Source of the DNA: Bacteroidaceae bacterium
Lineage (GTDB): Bacteria; Bacteroidota; Bacteroidia; Bacteroidales; Bacteroidaceae
NCBI GenBank assembly: GCA_017933995.1
Contig: JAGBKI010000023.1
Location: forward strand, 1 to 33,659
Length of the DNA: 33,659 nt
Reading direction: 5' to 3'
In this document: positions 5,336 to 32,090 of the stretch, piece by piece
Position numbering within the stretch: position 1 is the stretch's first letter
Layout: each line of letters begins with the position of its first letter
Position numbers and translations under genes: made by a program
Notes under the pieces: model-generated
Seen by the model: only the letters and a program-made list of their open reading frames with translations
Database searches by the model: none
What the model was told of the DNA's origin: nothing

Positions 5336-5530
5336 CCCCGCGAGGGGTTACAGATGTTAGGCCGGGGCAGCGCCCCGGTTGTGGTCGCTTGTGTAACCAA
5401 TCCCAGCGGGATTGCACAAACAATCGAATTGGACGATATCTTGTGCAACCCCGCTGGGGTTGGTTATATGGTGTCCGCTGCACCGGGGCGTTGCCCCGGC
5501 CTATCTTCTGCCACCTCTCCGAGGTGGTCG
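5336..5530. repeat. Dispersed CCCGCTGGGG-type repeat element, copy 1
   Basis: The element has nested palindromes: a near-perfect inverted pair at 5396-5419 and 5441-5464 (core AACCCCGCTGGGGTTGG), a CCGGGGC-rich part on either side, and an end block CCTATCTTCTGCC. Related copies lie at 28262-28520 and 31925-32090. It fills the spacer before the barrel gene and overlaps the 3' end of the GntR gene. Confidence 0.7.
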
Positions 5531-21680: not shown

Positions 21681-24656
21681 ATGAGTGTAAGAATAAGCAA
21701 GATTCTCAAAGAGTTCAACGTCGGCTTCCAGACCGTCTTGGAGACGCTGGCCGACAAGGGCGTGCAACTCGCCGACGCCACGCCCAGCACCAAGATTGAC
21801 GACGAGCACTACGACATCCTCAAGGAAGCCTTCAGCAAAGACAAGTCGTTGCGCAATGCCGCCGACGAGCTTCTGCAAACCCGCTTCCGCAGCAAGCGCG
21901 CGGGAAAGGAGGAAGAACCCGCTCCCGCAGTCGAGGTGAAGGAGGAAATCCCCGTTGCCCCCGCTGTCGAGGCCAAGGAGGAAGTCCCCACCGCCCCCGT
22001 CAAGGTCGAAGAAGTTCCCGCCGAGGTAGAGGAAACTCCCGCCGTGGTCGAGGAAGCCCCCGTTGTGCCTACAGTTGAAGTGCAGCCGCCCGTCGCTCCC
22101 GTCGAAGCCGAGGAAGTCCCCTCCGCCCCCGTTGAGTCCGAGGAAGCACCCGCTCCCGCCAAGGTCGAGAAAGCCTCCGTCGAGGTCGAGGAAACTCCCG
22201 CTTCCCCCGACGAAGCCGAGGAAGCCCCCGCCCCCGATGTTGTGTCTGCTGCTACAGTGCAGCAGCCCGCCGCTCCCGCCGAGGCCAAGGAAGCACCCAC
22301 AGCTCCCGCCGCGTCCGAAGATGCGGAATCTCCCCAGGCAGCCGATGGCGAAGAGCAGCCCCTCTCCAAAAAGGAGCAGCGCCTGCGCCAGCTCGGCACC
22401 GAGGAGAACGGCGTCTTCAAACTCCACGCCAAGCCCGCCCCGCAAGGCCCCAAGGTGCTCGGCACCATCGACCTCAGCGCCATCAACGACGCCACGCGAC
22501 CCAAGAAGAAGTCTAAGGCCGAACTCAAGAAGGAGCGTCTCGCCGCAGCAGGCGAGAAGAAGAAGCGCGCCCGCATCAACGGACAGCGCGTCGACGTGGC
22601 CGCCGCCGGACGGCAGGCCGCCAACGACCAGCGCAACGCCGCCCAGCAGCAGGGACGCGGACAGCAGGCAGGGCGCAACCAGCAGCAGAACGCACCCGCA
22701 GGCAAGAAAGCAAAGACCAAACGCCAGCAGCCCGTCGTCATCAAGCCCGATGTGAGCGACGAGGACGTGGCAAAGCAGGTACGCGAAACCCTCGCACGCC
22801 TCACCAGCAAGAGCAAAGCCTCCAAGGGTGCCAAGTACCGCAAGGAGAAGCGCGAGCAGGTGCGCCAGCTCCACGAAGAGCAGCTGCGCGAGGAGCGCGC
22901 CGAGAGCAAGGTGCTCAAGCTCACCGAGTTCGTCACCGCAAACGAAATCGCCACGATGATGGACGTGCCCGTGACTAAGGTCATCGGCACCTGCATGAGC
23001 GTCGGCATTATGGTCAGCATCAACCAGCGCCTCGACGCCGAGACCATCGACCTCGTGGCCAGCGAGTTCGGCTTCACCACCGAGTTCATCAGCGCCGAGG
23101 TCAGCGAGGCCGTAGCCGAGGAGGCCGACCGCGAGGAAGACCTCCAGCCCCGCGCACCCATCGTCACCGTGATGGGCCACGTCGACCACGGCAAGACCTC
23201 CCTGCTCGACTATATCCGCAAGTCTAACGTCATCGCGGGCGAGGCAGGCGGCATCACCCAGCACATCGGTGCCTACAACGTCACCCTCGAAAACGGACGC
23301 CACATCACTTTCCTCGACACCCCCGGCCACGAAGCTTTCACCGCTATGCGTGCCCGAGGCGCACAGGCCACCGACATCGCCATCATCATCATCGCCAGCG
23401 ACGACGACATCATGCCCCAGACCAAGGAGGCCATCAACCACGCCGTCGCAGCGGGCGTGCCCATCGTCTTCGCCATCAACAAGATTGACAAGCCCGGCGC
23501 CAACCCCGAGAAGATTAAGGAGGGTCTCGCCCAGATGAACTTCCTCGTAGAGGAGTGGGGCGGCAAGTACCAGAGCCAGGACATCAGCGCCAAGAAAGGC
23601 ATCGGCGTCGACGACCTGCTCGAAAAGGTGCTGCTCGAAGCCGACCTCCTCGAACTCAAGGCCAACCCCAACCGACGCGCCAGCGGCACCGTCATCGAAA
23701 GCTCGCTCGACAAAGGCCGCGGCTACGTCGCCACCGTACTCGTAGGCAACGGCACGCTCCACAAGGGCGACGTCGTGCTGGCCGGCACCAACTACGGGCG
23801 CGTCAAGGCCCTGTTCAACGAGCGCGGCAACCGCATCGACGACATCGGTCCCGCCATGGCCGCCACCCTCCTGGGCTTCAACGGCGCGCCGCAGGCAGGC
23901 GACCAGTTCCACGTCATGGAGACCGAGCAGGAAGCGCGCGAGATTGCTAACAAACGCGAACAACTGGCCCGCGAGCAGAGCCTGCGCACCACCAAGATGC
24001 TCACCCTCGACGAGGTGGGACGCCGCATCAAGCTCGGCTCCTTCCAGGAGATGAACATCATTGTCAAGGGTGACGTCGACGGCTCCGTCGAGGCACTCAG
24101 CGACTCGCTCATCAAACTCTCCACCGAGAAGATTGCCGTAAACGTCATCCACAAGGGCGTCGGCCAGATCAGCGAGAACGACATCACCCTCGCCGCCGCC
24201 TCGCAGGCCGTCATCATTGGCTTCCAGGTGCGTCCCAGCGCCGCAGCCCGCAAGCAGGCCGAGCGCGACGGCGTCGACATCCGCCTCTACAGCGTCATCT
24301 ACGACGCCATCGAGGAGGTCAAGCAGGCCATGGAGGGAATGCTCAAGCCCATCATCAAGGAAGAGGTCACCGCCACCGTCGAGGTGCGCCAGGTCTACCA
24401 CATCAGCAAAGTGGGCCTCGTCGCCGGCGCCTACGTCGTCGACGGCAAGGTGTCGCGCACCGACAAGGCGCGCCTCATCCGCGACGGCATCGTGGTCTTC
24501 ACCGGCAACCTCCTCGCCCTGAAGCGTTTCAAGGACGACGTCAAGGAAGTCACCACCAACTTCGAGTGCGGCATCAGCCTCGCCGGTTGCAACGACATCA
24601 AGGAGGGCGACCTCATCGAAACTTTCAAGGAAATCGAGGTCAAGCAGAAACTCTGA
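21681..24656 (+). CDS. infB: Translation initiation factor IF-2
   Basis: A 991-residue GTPase that delivers initiator tRNA to the ribosome. The N-terminal IF2_N motif ([21 protein letters not shown]) is followed by a long Ala/Pro/Glu/Val-rich linker (about 75-240) with repeated [13 protein letters not shown] segments and a Lys/Gln/Arg-rich stretch up to about 350. The G domain has GHVDHGKT (499-506), [15 protein letters not shown] and [12 protein letters not shown]. Domains II-IV follow to the end. It is complete and followed by a strong terminator. Confidence 0.97.
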
Positions 24657-24724: not shown

Positions 24725-24800
24725 GTTGTACGGCAACTTTCGCGTAGCCTTAATCCCTCCGAGGTTGTGGCTGTAAAAAGAGGAAAAAATCGGTAGGGAA

Positions 24801-24989
24801 ACGGCCTGAAAGGCCAACAAGCAATCAGCCCAGGGCAGCGCCCTGGGAGAGCAGCACACACAAAGCTCCGCCCTGTAAGGGCAAAAGCGTTCAAATCATA
24901 ATGCTTCTGCCCTTACAGACCGATGGTTGACGACGTTCATTCCCCAGGGCGCTGCCCTGGGCTGATTGCTTGTTGGCCTTTCAGGCCGT
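24801..24989. repeat. 189-bp palindromic repeat element
   Basis: The 47-bp arms 24801-24847 and 24943-24989 are exact reverse complements (containing CCCAGGGCGCTGCCCTGGG). An inner near-palindrome (CTGTAAGGGC with GCCCTTACAG) forms the middle. It resembles the CCCGGGGC-rich dispersed elements elsewhere in the window. No gene is seen in the 24657-25029 spacer. Confidence 0.8.
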
Positions 24990-25029
24990 TTATTTGCCGA
25001 CTTTTCAGGCCGTTTTTTGCCGAGAGCCG

Positions 25030-25524
25030 CTATTCCTGTTTGCCCGCAGCCTGCCTGATGAGGAAGTTTGTTTCTTCCACACCGTCGCCGACTGCTGCCC
25101 AAAGATACATCTGGCGTGAAGAGGCGGTCTGGTTGGGCTGAGCCACAATCCTGATAGCGTTGTGCTTCTCTTTAGCTATGGAGTTCTTTTGGGCCGACCT
25201 GTCTTTCTCTTTTGAAATGGAAAGCCATCCGTTTTCAAAACGCGGTTGGCTGTCCGTCAATTCTGTGACCCGTATAGGAATCCCGTCCATATACAGGCTT
25301 ATCTCGCTAACATAAAGTTCCGTAAACCCATTATAGTTGGTGCAGGTGAGCGTATATTCGCCCCCCTCTGCCGGTATTTGGATAACCTGGTGGTAATTCT
25401 CCTCAAAGATTTGGATTCCCGGCTCAATCTTCCACTTCATCGGCCCGCTAAGGTCATCTTCTTTTTCACAAGAAGAAAACCCAAGGCAAAGAAGTAGGAA
25501 AAATAGAAAGAATTTTGTTTTCAT
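25030..25524 (-). CDS. BACON-like small lipoprotein (array member 1)
   Basis: A 164-residue lipoprotein. The shared signal MKTKFFLFFLLLCLGFSSC ends in a lipobox and is followed by EKEDD. The single domain has the BACON-like plan: an IQIPAEGGEYTLTCTNYNGF strand pair, an aromatic WLSIS in the middle, IRIVAQPNQTASSRQMYL, and a closing FLIRQAAGKQE. The middle (about 85-115) differs most from the paralogues and includes an insertion (SAQKNSIAKEKHN). It follows the divergent lipoprotein at 25538 after 13 bases and shares its promoter. Function unknown; it may be a binding partner or inhibitor of the C10 peptidase. Confidence 0.75.
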   Translation of the reverse strand: MKTKFFLFFLLLCLGFSSCEKEDDLSGPMKWKIEPGIQIFEENYHQVIQIPAEGGEYTLTCTNYNGFTELYVSEISLYMDGIPIRVTELTDSQPRFENGWLSISKEKDRSAQKNSIAKEKHNAIRIVAQPNQTASSRQMYLWAAVGDGVEETNFLIRQAAGKQE

Positions 25525-25537
25525 GATTTCGGTTGTT

Positions 25538-25990
25538 TTATTGCCACTTGCAGTTTGTAGGGTCTTGTACAAGAGTGAATCGCTCTTCGGTTTTATTGGG
25601 GATTTTGAAAGTTAGGTAGATGATTCGTCCGCAATCAACGTGATTGGGCTGGATTTGCAACCTGAATGAATTACCATTGATATAAATGGAGAACCATTCT
25701 GCTTCTATAATCCCGTCCTTTTCCGTTTCGCTTTCACCTGCTGTCTTTGTATTATGGTCACCTTTTGTGTCCCAGAAACTGCACTGCCATCCGCTTATCT
25801 CTTTGTTTGTGCAGATGATTGTGGTATCGATGCCTGTTGCAGGTATACGAGCTGCTTCATGGAGCACATAGCCCGCCTTTTCCAGCAAAACCTCCAGAGG
25901 GATCGAATTTTCTATCGCTTCACTTCCTTCTTCGCAAGCGGTGAAAACAAACATGAAAGGCAATAATGCAAGGAAAAGTTTTATTTTCAT
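25538..25990 (-). CDS. Divergent BACON-like lipoprotein (array member 2)
   Basis: A 150-residue lipoprotein with a different signal peptide (MKIKLFLALLPFMFVFTAC, then EEG). The fold pattern of the array is still visible but poorly conserved: ARIPATGIDTTIICTNKE, AEWFSIYINGN, FRLQIQPNHVDCGRIIYL and a final FTLVQDP. It is directly preceded by a copy of the leader that elsewhere precedes C10 peptidase genes, and followed by array member 1 after 13 bases. It may represent an older, distinct partner protein. Function unknown. Confidence 0.65.
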   Translation of the reverse strand: MKIKLFLALLPFMFVFTACEEGSEAIENSIPLEVLLEKAGYVLHEAARIPATGIDTTIICTNKEISGWQCSFWDTKGDHNTKTAGESETEKDGIIEAEWFSIYINGNSFRLQIQPNHVDCGRIIYLTFKIPNKTEERFTLVQDPTNCKWQ

Positions 25991-26006
25991 AAATTCTGTG
26001 ATTTAG

Positions 26007-26165
26007 GTAAATGAAACAAGTTCTGTGGTTATAGGTATGATTGTGCGGAAGAGGCTGCTATATAGGTTCTGTTCGGAAAACAAGCGGTCAATCATCTCTA
26101 TATCCGCTGCAAATATCCGCAAGGTTTTCGGAACGGCCAAATAAATGGGTGGGAAAAATGTGCGG
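26007..26165. repeat. Peptidase-type leader repeat, copy 1 (before lipoprotein 2)
   Basis: Nearly identical (about five differences in 155 bases) to 28086-28245 and 31742-31900, which lie upstream of the two C10 peptidase genes. On the minus strand it includes a -33 TTTG (26141-26138), a 20-base spacer and GATATTTG (26117-26110). Here it drives lipoprotein genes with no peptidase gene behind it. Confidence 0.85.
26110..26141 (-). promoter_or_regulatory. Candidate promoter for lipoproteins 2 and 1
   Basis: TTTG, 20-base spacer, GATATTTG (one mismatch to TAnnTTTG). The same arrangement is kept in all three leader copies. Confidence 0.5.
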
Positions 26166-26245
26166 AACTTTCTTGCCAAGGAAATACGAGTCCGGGCAGA
26201 AACATAAGCTTCTTGCACCTTCCGCCCATCCAAAGAGGAAATACA

Positions 26246-26280
26246 ATCGGGGCGCATCCCATATTGGAATGCGCCCCGAT
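26246..26280 (-). terminator. Hairpin after lipoprotein 3, possible terminator
   Basis: ATCGGGGCGCAT (26246-26257) pairs perfectly with 26269-26280 around an 11-base loop. On the minus strand it is followed by TGTATTT, a weak T tract. It lies 31 bases past the stop at 26312. Confidence 0.5.
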
Positions 26281-26311
26281 GAACTTTAGTCGAGTTGCGT
26301 GCGGCTTTTGC

Positions 26312-26815
26312 CTACGGCTCTGATTCCTGTTCGACCGGCGCTTGTCTAAGGAGGAAGTGTGTGAAGACATCGCCGTGAGACGCTGTAAGATACATCTCAC
26401 GTGAAGATGTAGTTTGGTTGGGCTGAACCACGATCTTGATAGTTTTACCTATATCGATTGTGTCATCTGCCTCGATTGTGATAGAGAGCCATTCGTTTTC
26501 AAAATGAGTTTGGCTTTTGGTTAATTCCTCAAATACTATAATCTCTTTTAGATCTATATCCTCACAATTAAAGTTTCTAATTTGAAGAACCGAAAAGCCC
26601 CAAGTGGTGCAAATGAAGGTATATTCGCCACCCGCCGCTGGTAATTGTGCAACACAGTAAGGTAACTCTTTTAAGAATTGAATTTCCGGTATAGTCTTCC
26701 ACTCCATATGTTGCCAGGGGCCATCAAGACGTAAATCTTCTTCCCAATTCTCTGTCTTACAAGAAGAAAACCCAAGGCACAAAAGGAGGAAAAACAGAAA
26801 GAACTTTGTTTTCAT
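26312..26815 (-). CDS. BACON-like small lipoprotein (array member 3)
   Basis: A 167-residue lipoprotein with the shared signal MKTKFFLFFLLLCLGFSSC, then the MEWKTIPEIQFLKELPY block, AAGGEYTFICTTWGF, a variable middle, FENEWLSITIEAD, TIKIVVQPNQTTSSREMYL and THFLLRQAPVEQESEP. The ATG overlaps the stop of the upstream (frameshifted) C10 peptidase gene in ATGA, so the two are translationally coupled in the unbroken state. This coupling supports a functional link between peptidase and lipoprotein. The C-terminal tail QESEP is shared with array member 4. Confidence 0.78.
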   Translation of the reverse strand: MKTKFFLFFLLLCLGFSSCKTENWEEDLRLDGPWQHMEWKTIPEIQFLKELPYCVAQLPAAGGEYTFICTTWGFSVLQIRNFNCEDIDLKEIIVFEELTKSQTHFENEWLSITIEADDTIDIGKTIKIVVQPNQTTSSREMYLTASHGDVFTHFLLRQAPVEQESEP

Positions 26816-28070
26816 TTTGATACGATTGAATATTCTAAATTGTTGTTAAAATAGTAAGATCGGCTACTATCTTCATCTTTATTGTCTGGAAATTGGGCAC
26901 CAGCATAAGTGTTGAAAACTTTGCTGAGATAATAGCCATTCCTTTGACCGTCCCAGCCCCAGTTGCAATGCAGCATATATTGTGGGGTACAACTACCTTT
27001 TTGAGCTTTAATATACCCGTCATATACCCAAGCATGGCCGGATAGTGCACCGATTTCCTGCCCTCTGCCATAAACAAGTTTGTTCTCTATTATGGCATTG
27101 ACGATAGCGGTTTCATCAAATTCCTTGAGTGGGGTCGCATGTAACCCACCATAAGTGTTCATCCAATTGATGGCATTGCTGCTGGGAGCCATTGTTTCGT
27201 ATGATGGATAGTATACGGCTTCCATTGCATTCCCTAAATATCCGACGAGCGTTGCTACTTCGTGCGATGATAAGGACATCCATGGATATAGCCTCCCGTC
27301 AGTATCCTTAATATCTGCAAGAATACGCGGCCAATTAAGGTGTGCCGTTTTTACCGAGTTGTCGTAAGTACAACTGACATCCTCTATCGTCTGATAGTAT
27401 GACAGAATCTGCGCGGTGGCCGTGATGACACAACCAGCTGTTTGGTTGGGGCAATACCTGCCATAAGGAACTCCCTGTCCCCAAATAGTTTTGAGCAAGG
27501 GGTCTTTCTTCTTGAGTATGTTCCAGCTCCAGTTTGTCTGGCTGCTGCTACTTCCTATATCATCAAATACCGTATGATGGACTTCTGCATGAACAACACG
27601 ACGCCTTCAATTTTTTCGGCCTGTAAACAATCGAAGTCGTAATTGCCCTGGTCTACTAAGGCATACACAGGTTCTGTCCGCTTGTCGGCGGCAATCAGCG
27701 CGAAGCCCTCGTCGTCCGCGAAGTTCACAATATAGAACAAAGTGTCGATGCCGGAAACCGCAACCTTGTCGCTGTTGGACATCAGGCGTGAGATACCGTT
27801 GCGCTTGCAAAGCGGCAGCACGTTCTTTGCTGCGATACGCTTCTTGTAGGTAAGGCCGCCCTTGTCCAGCTCCAAACGCTCCTGGTTGAGCTTCGTCGCA
27901 AAGTCAAGGGCAATGGTTTCGGCTTCCTTGGGAGAAACCTTGAAGGAAACCTCTTCATTGGCGGGTGCCGCATACTCGAAAGTTTCATCATCCGTGCAGG
28001 AGATGAAGCCTACCGAAAGGCTGAAAGCCGCCAACACGAAGGCCAATGGCCATGTTTTGATGGTTTTCAT
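26812..28070 (-). pseudogene. C10 (streptopain-like) lipoprotein peptidase, frameshifted
   Basis: The 5' part (28070-27555) encodes a lipoprotein signal (GFISC, then TDDE) and the propeptide; the 3' part resumes in another frame and runs to 26812. Aligning with the intact copy places a single missing base between 27575 and 27576 (QKSI in frame one, then HTVFDDIG in the other). All catalytic features survive: QTAGCVITATAQIL (Cys), GHAWVYDGY (His) and HCNWGWDG. The first ~145 residues are almost identical to the intact copy while the catalytic domain differs substantially. Could be a recent inactivation, a sequencing error, or a switchable gene; no homopolymer is at the site. Confidence 0.8.
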
Positions 28071-28085
28071 GATTTTGTAGTTTTA

Positions 28086-28245
28086 ATAAATGAAACAAGT
28101 TCTGTGGTTATAGGGATGATTGTGCGGGAGGGGCTGCTATATAGGTTCTGTTCGAAAAACAAGCGGTCAATCATCTCTATATCCGCTGCAAATATCCGCA
28201 AGGTTTTCGGAACGGCCAAATAAATGGGTGGGAAAAATGTGCGTG
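28086..28245. repeat. Peptidase leader repeat, copy 2
   Basis: Upstream of the frameshifted C10 gene; near-identical to 26007-26165 and 31742-31900. Similarity to copy 3 continues to about 28330 through a small hairpin (AGACGCT-GGA-AGCGTCT, 28269-28285). On the minus strand an open frame crosses the repeat and ends in a TGA overlapping the peptidase ATG. Confidence 0.85.
28189..28220 (-). promoter_or_regulatory. Candidate promoter of the frameshifted C10 gene
   Basis: TTTG (28220-28217), 20-base spacer, GATATTTG (28196-28189) on the minus strand, about 120 bases before the start codon. Confidence 0.5.
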
Positions 28246-28261
28246 GATGTTGGAGGAAGGT

Positions 28262-28520
28262 ACGATTAAGACGCTGGAAGCGTCTGCCTAACCCCAGCGG
28301 GGTTACAGACGATAGACCGGGGTCGCTCGGTTTTGCCGGTTTGCTCTGCAAAGAACGCCCCGGGTATTGCGCCCATAGAAAACCAACCCCAGCGGGGTTA
28401 CACAAACATTCGTATAGCAAACGTTTTGTGCAACCCCGCTGGGGTTGGTTGTAATACCGTCCCTATCCGGGGCGCTGCCCCGGCCTATCTTCTCCAATCC
28501 CGCTGGGATTGTGGCTGCAC
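28262..28520. repeat. Dispersed CCCGCTGGGG-type repeat element, copy 2
   Basis: Contains AACCCCAGCGGGGTT units, a long inverted pair (28381-28450) and CCGGGGCGCTGCCCCGG followed by CCTATCTTCTCC. Related to 5336-5530 and 31925-32090. Together with the leader repeat it fills the 28071-28531 spacer; no gene is seen there. Confidence 0.75.
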
Positions 28521-28531
28521 GGGGCTTTTGC

Positions 28532-29005
28532 CTATGGCTCTGATTCTTGTTCGCCTGGTGCTTGTCTAAGGAGGAAGTTTGTGCCGACATTAAAACTTCC
28601 TGCCGTAATATACATCTTACGTGAAGATGTGGTTGTGTTGGGCTGAGCCACGATTTTGATTGTGTTGCGCGCCTCCATTGTTATGGAGAGCCATTCGTTT
28701 TCAAAATGAGGTCGTTTTTCGGTCAATTCTTCAAATACTATATCATTTACATCCATTTCTGTAAACAGAACACCCACACCGTAGTTGTAAACCGAAAGGT
28801 CCGTAAATCCATAGTTAGTGCAAATGAGCGTATACTCTGCACCCTCTGCTGGGATTTGAACCACATAGTAAGGGAACTCTTCAAGGAATTGCATTTCTGG
28901 TATCGTCTTCCACTCCATTGTCTCCCAATCGTTGAAATGTTCGCTTTCACAAGAAGAAACTCCAAGGCAGAGAAGAAGGAAAAAGAGAAAGGATTTTGTT
29001 TTCAT
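28532..29005 (-). CDS. BACON-like small lipoprotein (array member 4)
   Basis: A 157-residue lipoprotein: signal MKTKSFLFFLLLCLGVSSC, then ESEHFNDWETMEWKTIPEM, IPAEGAEYTLICTNYGF, a variable middle containing GVLFTEMDVNDIVFEEL, FENEWLSITMEA, TIKIVAQPNTTTSSRKMY and NFLLRQAPGEQESEP. Its first ~66 residues match array member 7, its middle matches member 6, and its tail matches member 3, so it is mosaic. It is the last gene of the four-lipoprotein run behind the intact C10 peptidase, 14 bases after member 5. Confidence 0.78.
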   Translation of the reverse strand: MKTKSFLFFLLLCLGVSSCESEHFNDWETMEWKTIPEMQFLEEFPYYVVQIPAEGAEYTLICTNYGFTDLSVYNYGVGVLFTEMDVNDIVFEELTEKRPHFENEWLSITMEARNTIKIVAQPNTTTSSRKMYITAGSFNVGTNFLLRQAPGEQESEP

Positions 29006-29019
29006 GATTGCGGTTGTTT

Positions 29020-29454
29020 TTATTGTTCGCCCGCCTCTTGTATAAGGAGGAAGTGTGTGGAGACATTGCCGCCACTTGCTTCAATAAACAGTTTATGTGA
29101 ATTTGCTGTCGGATTTGGCCGAGCTACAATTTTGATAGAATTGCCATTCTCTTCTGTGATAGAAATCCAATCGTTTTCAAAATACGGATGTTCGTATGTA
29201 ATTTCCTTAAACACAGAATTGTTCTCATCAAGAACGGCCACTTTCGTAAGTCTGTAGTTAGTGCAAGTGAAAGTATATTCGGCACCTTCCGCTGGTATTC
29301 CGACTGCATAGTAGAGAATCTCGTCAGATAAACGAATTTCAGGTACTGTCTTCCACTTCATCGGAGGCCAATCGTCTATTTCTTCTCCTTCTTTATCACA
29401 AGAAGAAATTCCAAGGCAAAGGAGCAATAACGGTAAAAAAAACTTTGTTTTCAT
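29020..29454 (-). CDS. BACON-like small lipoprotein (array member 5)
   Basis: A 144-residue lipoprotein: signal MKTKFFLPLLLLCLGISSC, then DKEGEE, MKWKTVPEIRLSDEILYY, IPAEGAEYTFTCTNYRL, a middle block VAVLDENNSVFKEITYEHP, FENDWISITEENGNSIKIV, ARPNPTANSHKLFI and THFLLIQEAGEQ. It is the most diverged of the four behind the intact peptidase, particularly in the middle and in SHKLF replacing SRKMY. The gap to member 6 is 13 bases, consistent with one transcript. Confidence 0.77.
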   Translation of the reverse strand: MKTKFFLPLLLLCLGISSCDKEGEEIDDWPPMKWKTVPEIRLSDEILYYAVGIPAEGAEYTFTCTNYRLTKVAVLDENNSVFKEITYEHPYFENDWISITEENGNSIKIVARPNPTANSHKLFIEASGGNVSTHFLLIQEAGEQ

Positions 29455-29467
29455 GATAGAGGTAATT

Positions 29468-29947
29468 TTATTGTTTGCCAGACGATTGTATAATGATGAA
29501 GGAGGTGAAGACATCGCAACATCCTGTATCAAGATACATCTTACGTGAAGATGTTGTTTGGTTGGGCTGAGCCACAATCTTGATTGAGCTGCCAGTATCT
29601 TCTGTGATGGAGAGCCATTCGTTTTCAAAATGAGGTTGGCTTTCGTTCAATTCTTCTTCCACTATATCATTTACATCCATTTCTGTAAAGAGAACACCCA
29701 TCTCATAGTTGCGAACCGTAAGGTTCGTAAATCCATAGTTGGTGCAGATGAAAGTGTATTCGGCACCTTCCGCTGGTATTTGTACGACATGGTAAGGAAA
29801 CTTCATGGGAAATTGTATTTCCGGTATAGTCTTCCACTCCATCGGTGGCCAGTCCCCCACAAGGAAAATATCTTCTTCATTCTCTGTCTCACAAGAAGAA
29901 ACTCCAAGGCAGAGAAGAAGGAAAAACAGAAAAAATTTTGTTTTCAT
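29468..29947 (-). CDS. BACON-like small lipoprotein (array member 6)
   Basis: A 159-residue lipoprotein: signal MKTKFFLFFLLLCLGVSSC, then ETENEEDIF, MEWKTIPEIQFPMKFPY, IPAEGAEYTFICTNYGF, a middle block EMGVLFTEMDVNDIVEEEL shared with member 4, FENEWLSITEDTGSSIKIV, AQPNQTTSSRKMYL, and an unusual C-terminus SFIIIQSSGKQ without the common FLLRQAP. The start at 29947 was chosen because it begins the shared signal peptide; the frame is open further upstream. Same operon as its neighbours. Confidence 0.78.
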   Translation of the reverse strand: MKTKFFLFFLLLCLGVSSCETENEEDIFLVGDWPPMEWKTIPEIQFPMKFPYHVVQIPAEGAEYTFICTNYGFTNLTVRNYEMGVLFTEMDVNDIVEEELNESQPHFENEWLSITEDTGSSIKIVAQPNQTTSSRKMYLDTGCCDVFTSFIIIQSSGKQ

Positions 29948-29960
29948 GATTGGAGGTTTT

Positions 29961-30392
29961 TTATTGTTCGCTTGGCGCTTGTCTAAGGAGGAAGTGTGTG
30001 CCGACATTGCCGTGGCTTGTTTCAAGAATCAGCTCACGTGATTTAGTTGTTAAGTTTGGTATAGCCGCAATCTTGATAGAATTGCCATTCTCTTTTGTGA
30101 TGGAGAGCCATTCGTTCTCGAAATGTGGATGGCTGTTCGTTAATTCTTCATGAACTAAATTATCTTTATCAAGAATATTGATATTCATAAGTTGTGCGTA
30201 GTTGGTGCAAATGAGCGTATACTCGGCACCCTCTGCTGGGATTTGAACCACATAGTAAGGGAACTCTTCAAGGAATTGCATTTCTGGTATCGTCTTCCAC
30301 TCCATTGTCTCCCAGTCGTTGAAATGTTCGCTTTCACAGGAAGAAGCGACAAGGCAAAGAAGCAAGAAGAATAGAAAGAATTTCGTTTTCAT
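29961..30392 (-). CDS. BACON-like small lipoprotein (array member 7)
   Basis: A 143-residue lipoprotein: signal MKTKFFLFFLLLCLVASSC, then ESEHFNDWETMEWKTIPEM, IPAEGAEYTLICTNY, a middle block MNINILDKDNLVHEELTNS, FENEWLSITKENGNSIKIA, IPNLTTKSRELIL and THFLLRQAPSEQ. It is the first lipoprotein after the intact C10 peptidase, 37 bases past its stop; the longer upstream frame overlaps the peptidase gene and is not used. By analogy with Bacteroides C10 loci it is the best candidate for a cognate inhibitor or partner. Confidence 0.78.
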   Translation of the reverse strand: MKTKFFLFFLLLCLVASSCESEHFNDWETMEWKTIPEMQFLEEFPYYVVQIPAEGAEYTLICTNYAQLMNINILDKDNLVHEELTNSHPHFENEWLSITKENGNSIKIAAIPNLTTKSRELILETSHGNVGTHFLLRQAPSEQ

Positions 30393-30429
30393 TTTGTATT
30401 GTGTTGATTGTGTGAAAGGGACATTAAGA

Positions 30430-31725
30430 TTATTTTTTAGATATAACCGAATATTCCAGTTTATACTTGTAATTAGAACCATTAGGATCGTATCCTTCAC
30501 CTTCATTATCCGGGAATTCAGCACCCACAAAAGTATTAAAGACCTTACAGAGGTAGTAACCGTTTCTTTTTCCATTCCAGCCCCAGTTACAATGGAGCAT
30601 TTTTTCTGGCGTACTCTCCCCTTTTTGGGCATAAAGGTAGCCATCGTATACCCAAGCGTGACCGTCTTTGTATTCCCGTTTAAGTCCAAGCCAGGATGTC
30701 TCTTTCTTTCCATTTCCTCGAGCATAGACCAACTTTCCTTCTTTGATGGCGTTGAATATCGCCGTAGCATCAAAACCTTTAAGCTGTGTTGCGTATAAGC
30801 CACCTGAAGCGTTCATCCATTCAATGCTCTTGTTCCCCTTAACTCCTGTCTTTTTGGGGGTGCTGTAGTCGGCTCCCATAGCATCACCTAAATATCTGAT
30901 GAGTGTTGCCACTTCATGTGAAGACTGCGGATGTTTTAGTGAAGTCAATTTACCATTTTTCTTGCAATCGGCAATAATACGTGTCCAGTCAAGATGTGCT
31001 GTTTTTATTGAGTTGTTGTAAGTACAGCTGACATCCTCTATCGTTTGATAGTATGACAGAATCTGCGCGGTGGCCGTGATAACACAACCTGCTGTTTGGT
31101 TGGGGCTATACTTGCCATAAGGCTCTCCCTGTCCCCAATTTGTTTTGAGCAAAGGTTCTTTCTTGCTAACTATATGCCACTTCCCGTACTTTAGGACGCA
31201 ACCGCCGCCCATGTCATCCAATTCCACATCTATGGATTTCTGCAAGAACATCACGAAGCCCTCGTTTTCTTCATTAGGCAAACTGTTGAAGTCGTAATTA
31301 CCTTGATCTACGATGGCATAGACGGGCTCTGTCCGCTTGTCGGCGGCAATCAGCGCGAAGCCCTCGTCGTCCTCGAAGTTCACGATGTAGAACAAAGTGT
31401 CGATGCCGGAAACCGCAACCTTGTCGCTGTTGGACATCAGGCGTGAGATACCGTTGCGCTTGCAAAGCGGCAGCACGTTCTTTGCCGCGATACGTTTCTT
31501 GTAGGTTAGGCCGCCCTTGTCCAGCTCCAGACGCTCCTGGTTGAGCTTCGTCGCAAAGTCAAGGGCAATGGTTTCGGCTTCCTTGGGAGAAACCTTGAAG
31601 GAAACCTCTTCATTGGCGGGTGCCGCATACTCGAAAGTTTCATCGTCCGTGCAGGAGATGAAGCCTACCGAAAGGCTGAAAGCCGCCAACACGAAGGCCA
31701 AAGGCCATGTTTTGATGGTTTTCAT
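30430..31725 (-). CDS. C10 family (streptopain-like) cysteine peptidase, surface lipoprotein
   Basis: A 431-residue pre-pro-peptidase. The signal peptide ends GFISC and the mature part begins CTDDETFE, an acidic start like the Bacteroidetes surface-export signal. Residues about 40-165 are the SpeB-type propeptide (VSPKEAETIALDFATKLN; GFALIAADKRTEPVYAIVD). The catalytic domain has Cys214 in NQTAGCVITATAQIL, His356 in GHAWVYDGY and the HCNWGWNG motif (378-385). C10 peptidases are secreted as zymogens and cleave host or bacterial proteins. Four lipoprotein genes follow in the same direction. Bacteroides relatives (bfp, btp) are also clustered with candidate inhibitors. Confidence 0.9.
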   Translation of the reverse strand: MKTIKTWPLAFVLAAFSLSVGFISCTDDETFEYAAPANEEVSFKVSPKEAETIALDFATKLNQERLELDKGGLTYKKRIAAKNVLPLCKRNGISRLMSNSDKVAVSGIDTLFYIVNFEDDEGFALIAADKRTEPVYAIVDQGNYDFNSLPNEENEGFVMFLQKSIDVELDDMGGGCVLKYGKWHIVSKKEPLLKTNWGQGEPYGKYSPNQTAGCVITATAQILSYYQTIEDVSCTYNNSIKTAHLDWTRIIADCKKNGKLTSLKHPQSSHEVATLIRYLGDAMGADYSTPKKTGVKGNKSIEWMNASGGLYATQLKGFDATAIFNAIKEGKLVYARGNGKKETSWLGLKREYKDGHAWVYDGYLYAQKGESTPEKMLHCNWGWNGKRNGYYLCKVFNTFVGAEFPDNEGEGYDPNGSNYKYKLEYSVISKK

Positions 31726-31741
31726 GATTTTGTAGTTTTAA

Positions 31742-31900
31742 TAAATGAAACAAGTTCTGTGGTTATAGGGATGACTGTGCGGAAGGGGCTGCTATATAGG
31801 TTCTGTTCGGAAAACAAGCGGTCAATCATCTCTATATCCACTGCAAATATCCGCAAGGTTTTCGGAACGGCCAAATAAATGGGTGGGAAAAATGTGCGGG
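31742..31900. repeat. Peptidase leader repeat, copy 3
   Basis: Upstream of the intact C10 gene; near-identical to the copies at 26007-26165 and 28086-28245. The minus-strand open frame through it again ends in TGA overlapping the peptidase ATG. Confidence 0.85.
31844..31875 (-). promoter_or_regulatory. Candidate promoter of the intact C10 operon
   Basis: Minus strand TTTG (31875-31872), 20-base spacer, GATATTTG (31851-31844), one mismatch to the Bacteroidetes consensus. Confidence 0.5.
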
Positions 31901-31924: not shown

Positions 31925-32090
31925 GACGCTGGAAGCGTCTGCCTAACCCCAGCGGGGTTACAAATGATAGTCCGGGGCATCGTCCTGGATGATGCCCCCC
32001 AACAATACCAACCCCAACGGGGTTACAGATGATAGCCCAGGGTGCGGCCTCGGTCTATCTTCTGCAACCTCTCCGAGGTTGTGCCGTGCG
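31925..32090. repeat. Dispersed CCCAGCGGGG-type repeat element, copy 3
   Basis: Two ACCCCA(G/A)CGGGGTTACA units, CCGGGGCATCG, and the end block CTATCTTCTGCAACCTCTCCGAGG, as in the copy at 5336-5530. It begins with the same AGACGCT hairpin as copy 2. No gene is seen in 31726-32111. Confidence 0.75.

Follow-up and report, generated by a model that had tools for sequence, protein, structure and literature searches.

A contig of 33,659 nucleotides from a Bacteroidaceae bacterium (JAGBKI010000023.1; 'the window' here means this whole stretch of DNA) carries, at positions 25030 to 31725, an array of seven related lipoprotein genes, W1 to W7, together with an intact and an interrupted gene for C10 peptidases, pepA and pepB. 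We consider that the W lipoproteins probably inhibit C10 peptidases or confer immunity to them, and of the readings of this finding, which holds up as real, inhibition is the best. The kind of system is already known, as candidate inhibitors of Bacteroides C10 peptidases were proposed in 2010 and 2012, with no inhibition test reported in the accessible parts of those papers; the novelty lies in the array, which is large and mosaic, and in the exchangeability of the partner slot behind C10 genes. Seven natural variants and a peptidase to match come together here in a single set of units. The presence, in other genomes, of several unrelated lipoprotein families in one slot behind one kind of C10 gene makes it possible to address directly whether that slot means inhibitor. 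If so, this could be the general rule by which Bacteroidales tolerate papain-like proteases at the cell surface, much as is stated for the potempins and other peptidases.

All genes of the array lie on the minus strand, in three units. Unit 1 begins with pepA (30430..31725), which encodes an intact C10 peptidase of 431 amino acids that is itself a lipoprotein, followed after 37 bases by W1 (29961..30392, 143 amino acids) and then, at gaps of 13, 13 and 14 bases, by W2 (29468..29947, 159 amino acids), W3 (29020..29454, 144 amino acids) and the mosaic W4 (28532..29005, 157 amino acids). Unit 2 holds pepB, whose frame is interrupted such that a propeptide piece (27555..28070) and a catalytic piece with Cys and His motifs (26812..27498) lie in different frames, and W5 (26312..26815, 167 amino acids), which overlaps the catalytic frame by ATGA. 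In unit 3, W6 (25538..25990, 150 amino acids), a divergent family member directly behind the unit's leader, sits where units 1 and 2 have their C10 gene and is followed after 13 bases by W7 (25030..25524, 164 amino acids). Direct adjacency to a C10 gene is therefore seen for W1 and W5, and W6 and W7 form a unit without one. This layout agrees with a preliminary description of the region, which had reported an intact peptidase gene followed by four lipoprotein genes, a frameshifted paralogue overlapping a fifth, and a third unit of two lipoproteins lacking a peptidase.

PepA passes the Pfam cut-offs for both Peptidase_C10 (PF01640; 96.9 bits against 26) and Inhibitor_I69 (45.1 bits against 25). 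Its signal has a lipobox (Cys25) and is followed by a Spi-like (I69) propeptide; in the catalytic domain, Cys214 and His356 are both invariant in an alignment of seven short C10 peptidases. The two pieces of pepB, scanned separately, divide these matches between them, one passing Peptidase_C10 and the other Inhibitor_I69. Two more C10 genes, with frames of 560 and 1478 amino acids, lie on other contigs of this genome, and neither has a lipoprotein directly behind it. All seven window lipoproteins have a lipobox (Cys19) with acidic residues nearby. Acidic residues near the lipobox cysteine in Bacteroidetes export signals point to the cell surface, which is the likely location of W1 to W7. In our reading, unit 1 supplies a C10 zymogen together with Bfi4-family lipoproteins, with the same kind of lipid anchor on both.

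The family assignment comes from comparison with a published candidate. W1, W2, W3, W5 and W7 are 57–73% identical to W4, and W6 is 33% identical. Two profiles served for searching, one built from the seven proteins of the window (A1) and one with 16 family rows (A4); L-numbers below denote loci compared, and G004, G034 and the like are genomes of the window's genus. The two published bfi4 primers (from the available text of PMC2873492) both fit the gene at L091 exactly. Its protein of 138 amino acids, which is 100% identical to a protein on a Coprobacter metagenome-assembled genome (MAG) contig, is absent from A1 and A4; when a small set was searched with A1, that is with the window proteins alone, it came up at E 2e-15. 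Because L091 carries both primer sites and is found by A1, we assign the window array to one family with Bfi4, a kinship traced through the L091 gene. The preliminary description had set the lipoproteins apart from the described Bacteroides candidates; this does not stand, and a new BACON-fold inhibitor family unlike those described is ruled out, as the family includes a gene with the bfi4 primer sites. Its suggestion of a BACON-like fold is weak: against the Pfam BACON model (PF13004, cut-off 25 bits) W1 to W5 scored 13.3–19.1 bits and W6 and W7 had no match, and the only solved homologue that A1 found in the PDB, 2mw1 (E 6.8e-8), was named 'Lipocalin-like protein' by its depositors. A search of the open-access literature found no paper on 2MW1.

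Other searches placed the proteins no further. No window protein matched a staphostatin profile at E ≤ 10; among 21 family members, the sole contact with such a profile is that of 2mw1, below threshold (E 0.019). A scan of the window proteins against NCBIfam gave nothing useful. The alignment of the window proteins, first run as a profile against genome contigs, retrieved no relatives, and the seven-protein profile gave no further match in this genome at E ≤ 0.001, with an eighth candidate on contig C31 at E 0.03. No plasmid match was found for W4. The L091 protein matched one plasmid sequence and nothing among phages.

Members of this family occur beside C10 genes in other genomes. At E ≤ 1e-6, 8 of 58 genomes of the genus had a family match, a count that includes the window's own genome and comes from a profile having the G004 and G034 members, among others, as rows. 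In G004, two family members flank an intact C10 gene and another stands after a C10 C-terminal remnant; in G034, one stands behind a C10 domain that lacks a signal peptide and the other behind a C-terminal remnant. The C10 peptidase of L068, a locus chosen for its peptidase and not through a lipoprotein match, is the closest to PepA among the seven short C10 peptidases aligned (39%), and two family members flank its gene. The members in G008 and G043 start less than 140 bases from a contig end, so their flanks are uninformative (G043 has a short C10 gene on another contig, ending 68 bases before the contig end), and the G003 match is partial, within a larger frame. At L217, from a Prevotellaceae MAG, a gene for a C10 protein of 436 amino acids is followed by a bfi4-like gene through an ATGA overlap, as in pepB and W5; the contig ends after the first 39 residues of the latter, which are 95% identical. 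L214 (Prevotella sp. BV3P1) has a family lipoprotein after a C10 C-terminal remnant. We also observed a Bfi4-family gene directly behind a C10 C-terminal remnant on a Parabacteroides distasonis plasmid (NZ_OY725763.1; L221, 4855-5405). No C10 gene was seen in the loci of the named relatives L212, L215, L216, L219 and L220.

The association is broader when approached from the peptidase. A short-C10 profile matches 258 of the 393 genomes of the order. We examined 38 short C10 genes (up to 520 amino acids, outside the window array) and 15 long ones, taking as the slot the next same-strand gene at −70 to +210 bases and calling lipoproteins by a pattern of our own; four short genes with less than 600 bases downstream (L065, L197, L199 and L217) were excluded. 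A lipoprotein was the next gene for 31 of the remaining 34 short C10 genes and for 0 of 15 long ones, a contrast that is not a random sample, the short genes being the best profile matches plus a genus listing and the long ones hand-picked from those listings. L056 had been fetched through its lipoprotein match (30/33 without it), and the near-identical L174 and L175 are both counted. The distance from C10 to lipoprotein ranges between −8 and 204 bases and is 27 bases or less in 24 of the 31 cases, and the background among other genes of the same loci is 19/277, or 19/153 where the next gene is equally close. The C10 proteins were themselves called lipoproteins in 32 of 38 short cases versus 1 of 15 long. 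The co-occurrence with C10 genes that the preliminary description had proposed as a check was thus found from both directions, through the family in G004 and G034 and through the slot.

The slot is occupied by proteins of several kinds. Clustering the mature parts of 48 proteins gave the Bfi4 family (19), a 'GNDLL' family (13), a family of five, three serpins, a pair and six singletons; the E-values refer to this tiny set, and the Bfi4 cluster includes window, 2mw1 and standalone members. Lipoprotein serpins, whose fold is known from inhibitors, lie directly behind a short C10 gene at L176, L184 and L195 (Pfam, E 1.3e-61, 1.1e-94 and 3.1e-69 across the three loci), and L176 has two C10–serpin units in tandem, with an in-frame stop in the first C10 gene. 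The L195 serpin and the further L176 serpin have an inhibitory-type hinge, called by a motif that we assume to mark this type. A search of the open-access literature for serpins linked to C10 genes turned up no description of such operons. Since serpins and the Bfi4 family also stand alone, the slot seems to recruit from families with an existence outside it.

The 'GNDLL' family (G-x-D-L-L-D ... WYNG ... IIK) was observed behind short C10 genes at L178, L180–L183, L186–L188, L190, L192, L193, L196 and L198. It had no naming match in Pfam (4 of 13 members scanned) or NCBIfam (all 13) and no convincing solved relative. Homology between this family (alignment A6) and that of the window was rejected, as the profile comparison aligns the signal peptide only.

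Tandem partners elsewhere number one to three (three at L180), compared with seven in the window, four of them behind one C10 gene; the array is the largest of the 32 loci compared, window included, which bears out the earlier impression that its size is unusual. W4 is a mosaic of W1-like and W2-like segments: its 114 informative sites split evenly, 57 siding with W1 and 57 siding with W2. They fall into 20 runs, the longest of 37, and 20,000 shuffles never gave a run number or a longest run as extreme, although neighbouring sites are not independent. Between W4 and W1, the proportion of non-synonymous differences (pN) is 0.00 and of synonymous differences (pS) 0.12 over residues 20–64, whereas pS is 0.59 over residues 65–99. 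Mean pN/pS among the six close copies is 0.17, 0.38, 0.68 and 0.53 in four regions, residues 65–99 having the highest mean (0.68) as well as length differences between copies; in the middle region, one of 15 pairs has a pN/pS above 1. The close copies are on average under purifying constraint, and positive selection across the whole array was not seen, the regional means lying between 0.17 and 0.68. The array has grown by tandem duplication and gene conversion, which have produced a panel of lipoprotein variants. Of the diversification suggested in the preliminary description, recombination is demonstrated for W4, and the variants may be matched to different peptidases or targets.

In several loci the partner also seems to outlast its peptidase. 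The C10 frame is interrupted and the partner open in window unit 2, in the first unit of L176 and at L187 and L192 (an in-frame stop at the last three), and the C10 gene is reduced to its 3' part in the second unit of L056 and at L214, L221 and L262, with the reservations that these last four loci were found via lipoprotein searches, so that the count of decayed C10 genes is biased, and that sequencing errors may account for in-frame stops where the genome is a draft. Such decay of the C10 gene beside an intact partner suggests, allowing for that bias and for error, that the partner has a use even without its peptidase. A wider model is possible but doubtful: that on the surface of Bacteroidales a C10 peptidase and its lipoprotein partner work as an exchangeable module of attack and immunity, with the slot refilled by unrelated inhibitor folds, and that arrays are orphan immunity banks, kept after their own peptidase decays, against the C10 peptidases of neighbouring cells. 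It would fit these data because intact partners occur with broken, reduced or absent C10 genes, in window units 2 and 3 and at the other loci just named.

In the account that we favour, inhibition or immunity, the lipoproteins would bind and block mature C10 peptidases after propeptide removal and so protect the cell's own surface. What stands of the role raised in the preliminary description is a candidate role tied to C10, from the co-occurrence in G004 and G034, the slot counts and the three serpins. Several observations weigh against it. Outside the window, 0 of 18 full-length order-wide family matches have a C10 gene in the fetched flank (up to 1.5 kb), five of the 18 being rows of the profile used and three (L091, L092 and L107) lying about 260 bases or less from the upstream contig end; that A4 search covered 393 genomes and matched 21, counting that of the window. 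In the genus, the family members of G033 and G036 are not adjacent to C10 genes, and in the slot count three of the 34 short C10 genes (L066, L194 and L200) have no adjoining lipoprotein. A serpin search gave 0 of 30 fetched loci with a C10 gene within 1.5 kb, and therefore the slot serpin may act on proteases other than C10; the same serpin listing contains G162:C57, the C10-linked serpin of L184. Finally, the available text of the papers concerned (PMC2873492, PMC3462683) puts forward an inhibitory action of Bfi and Bti proteins as a proposal and not as a measurement.

The order of the genes bears equally on a different role. C10-first order, short gaps and ATGA-type overlaps would suit a chaperone just as well, and the lipoprotein could be a folding, transport or activation partner that brings the C10 zymogen to the surface or to maturity; we find this improbable, as a dedicated chaperone would hardly be replaced by unrelated partner clusters that include serpins, and units persist where the C10 gene has decayed or is absent. 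Less probable again is that the lipoproteins ward off foreign proteases or toxins, whether from hosts or from competitors, or have some other role at the surface, with the C10 gene merely co-regulated. Standalone family members and serpins with no C10 gene nearby speak for it, as does a weak match of 2 of 21 family members to the NCBIfam BSAP-5i immunity protein model (alignment A7, best 0.011), but the contrast between short and long C10 genes ties the slot to one C10 kind. Least probable of all is that the proteins are BACON-like modules for glycan binding or for keeping the peptidase close to its substrates. At E ≤ 1 the BACON model does match 12 of 21 family members (best E 4.2e-5), but every window match is under the Pfam cut-off, the window proteins are separate lipoproteins with no fusion to an enzyme, and, in the accessible text of a 2025 paper (PMC12853789), a cited study saw no substrate binding by one BACON domain and the function is called unknown.

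Several systems described elsewhere come close to this one; an open-access literature search for later work on Bfi or staphostatin-like partners brought up the Thornton-group papers and a co-culture paper. The bfp4 and bfi4 genes of B. fragilis were reported to be transcriptionally coupled, and that species has one or two Bfi partners per peptidase, including bfp1-bfi1A/B (available text of the 2010 paper, PMC2873492); Bfi and Bti proteins have 116–138 amino acids (available text of PMC3462683), a range into which the L091 protein falls. The window shares with bfp4-bfi4 a small exported partner adjoining a C10 gene, its proteins being homologous via the bfi4-primer gene, and differs from the bfp-bfi loci as described there in having four partners behind one peptidase, seven in total, and longer ones, at 143–167 amino acids. 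In B. thetaiotaomicron, the btp-bti loci likewise have C10 genes near small exported proteins, reported as co-transcribed (available text of PMC3462683), a likeness taken from their description. The same text describes staphostatins, whose gene adjoins that of a papain-like cysteine peptidase and which are thought to act in the cytoplasm. The resemblance of staphostatins and Spi to the window is that of an inhibitor-candidate gene beside a cysteine peptidase gene, and in the window the Spi-like part is the propeptide of the C10 protein itself. For the KLIKK peptidases of Tannerella forsythia, the neighbouring lipoprotein gene encodes a specific inhibitor (potempin), according to unpublished data cited in the accessible part of PMC7296668. 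Compared by that description, the likeness is a peptidase gene paired with a lipoprotein gene, and the inhibitor gene lies upstream of the peptidase, unlike in the window, where the lipoproteins are downstream of C10. To our knowledge, KLIKK peptidases are not C10 peptidases.

Directly ahead of the first start codon of each unit lies a 173-nucleotide leader, also on the minus strand (31727..31899, 28072..28244 and 25993..26165 for units 1, 2 and 3), copies 1 and 2 being 94% identical to the unit 3 reference copy. Each contains a promoter-like TTTG-N20-NANNTTTG (31875-31844, 28220-28189 and 26141-26110), which we take to resemble the Bacteroidetes promoter consensus; the three sites are one repeated sequence and hence one observation. 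Gene spacing, together with a single promoter-like site for every unit, makes it probable that the units are operons, each driven from its own leader copy.

The surroundings of the array contain further repeats. A palindromic GC-rich sequence, AACCCCGCTGGGGTT, occurs in eight copies in the window (up to two mismatches) versus 0.09 expected, at 5399-5461, 28290-28510 and 31945-32024. Four of the copies lie in the stretch that separates unit 1 from unit 2, and two adjoin unit 1; the sequence could be the mark of a repeat element favouring recombination. The array is flanked by what are presumably an IF-2-like gene (21681-24656) and a BamA-type outer-membrane protein gene (from 32112), and a 63-nucleotide inverted repeat (24785-24847 / 24943-25005, 92% complementary) lies downstream of it.

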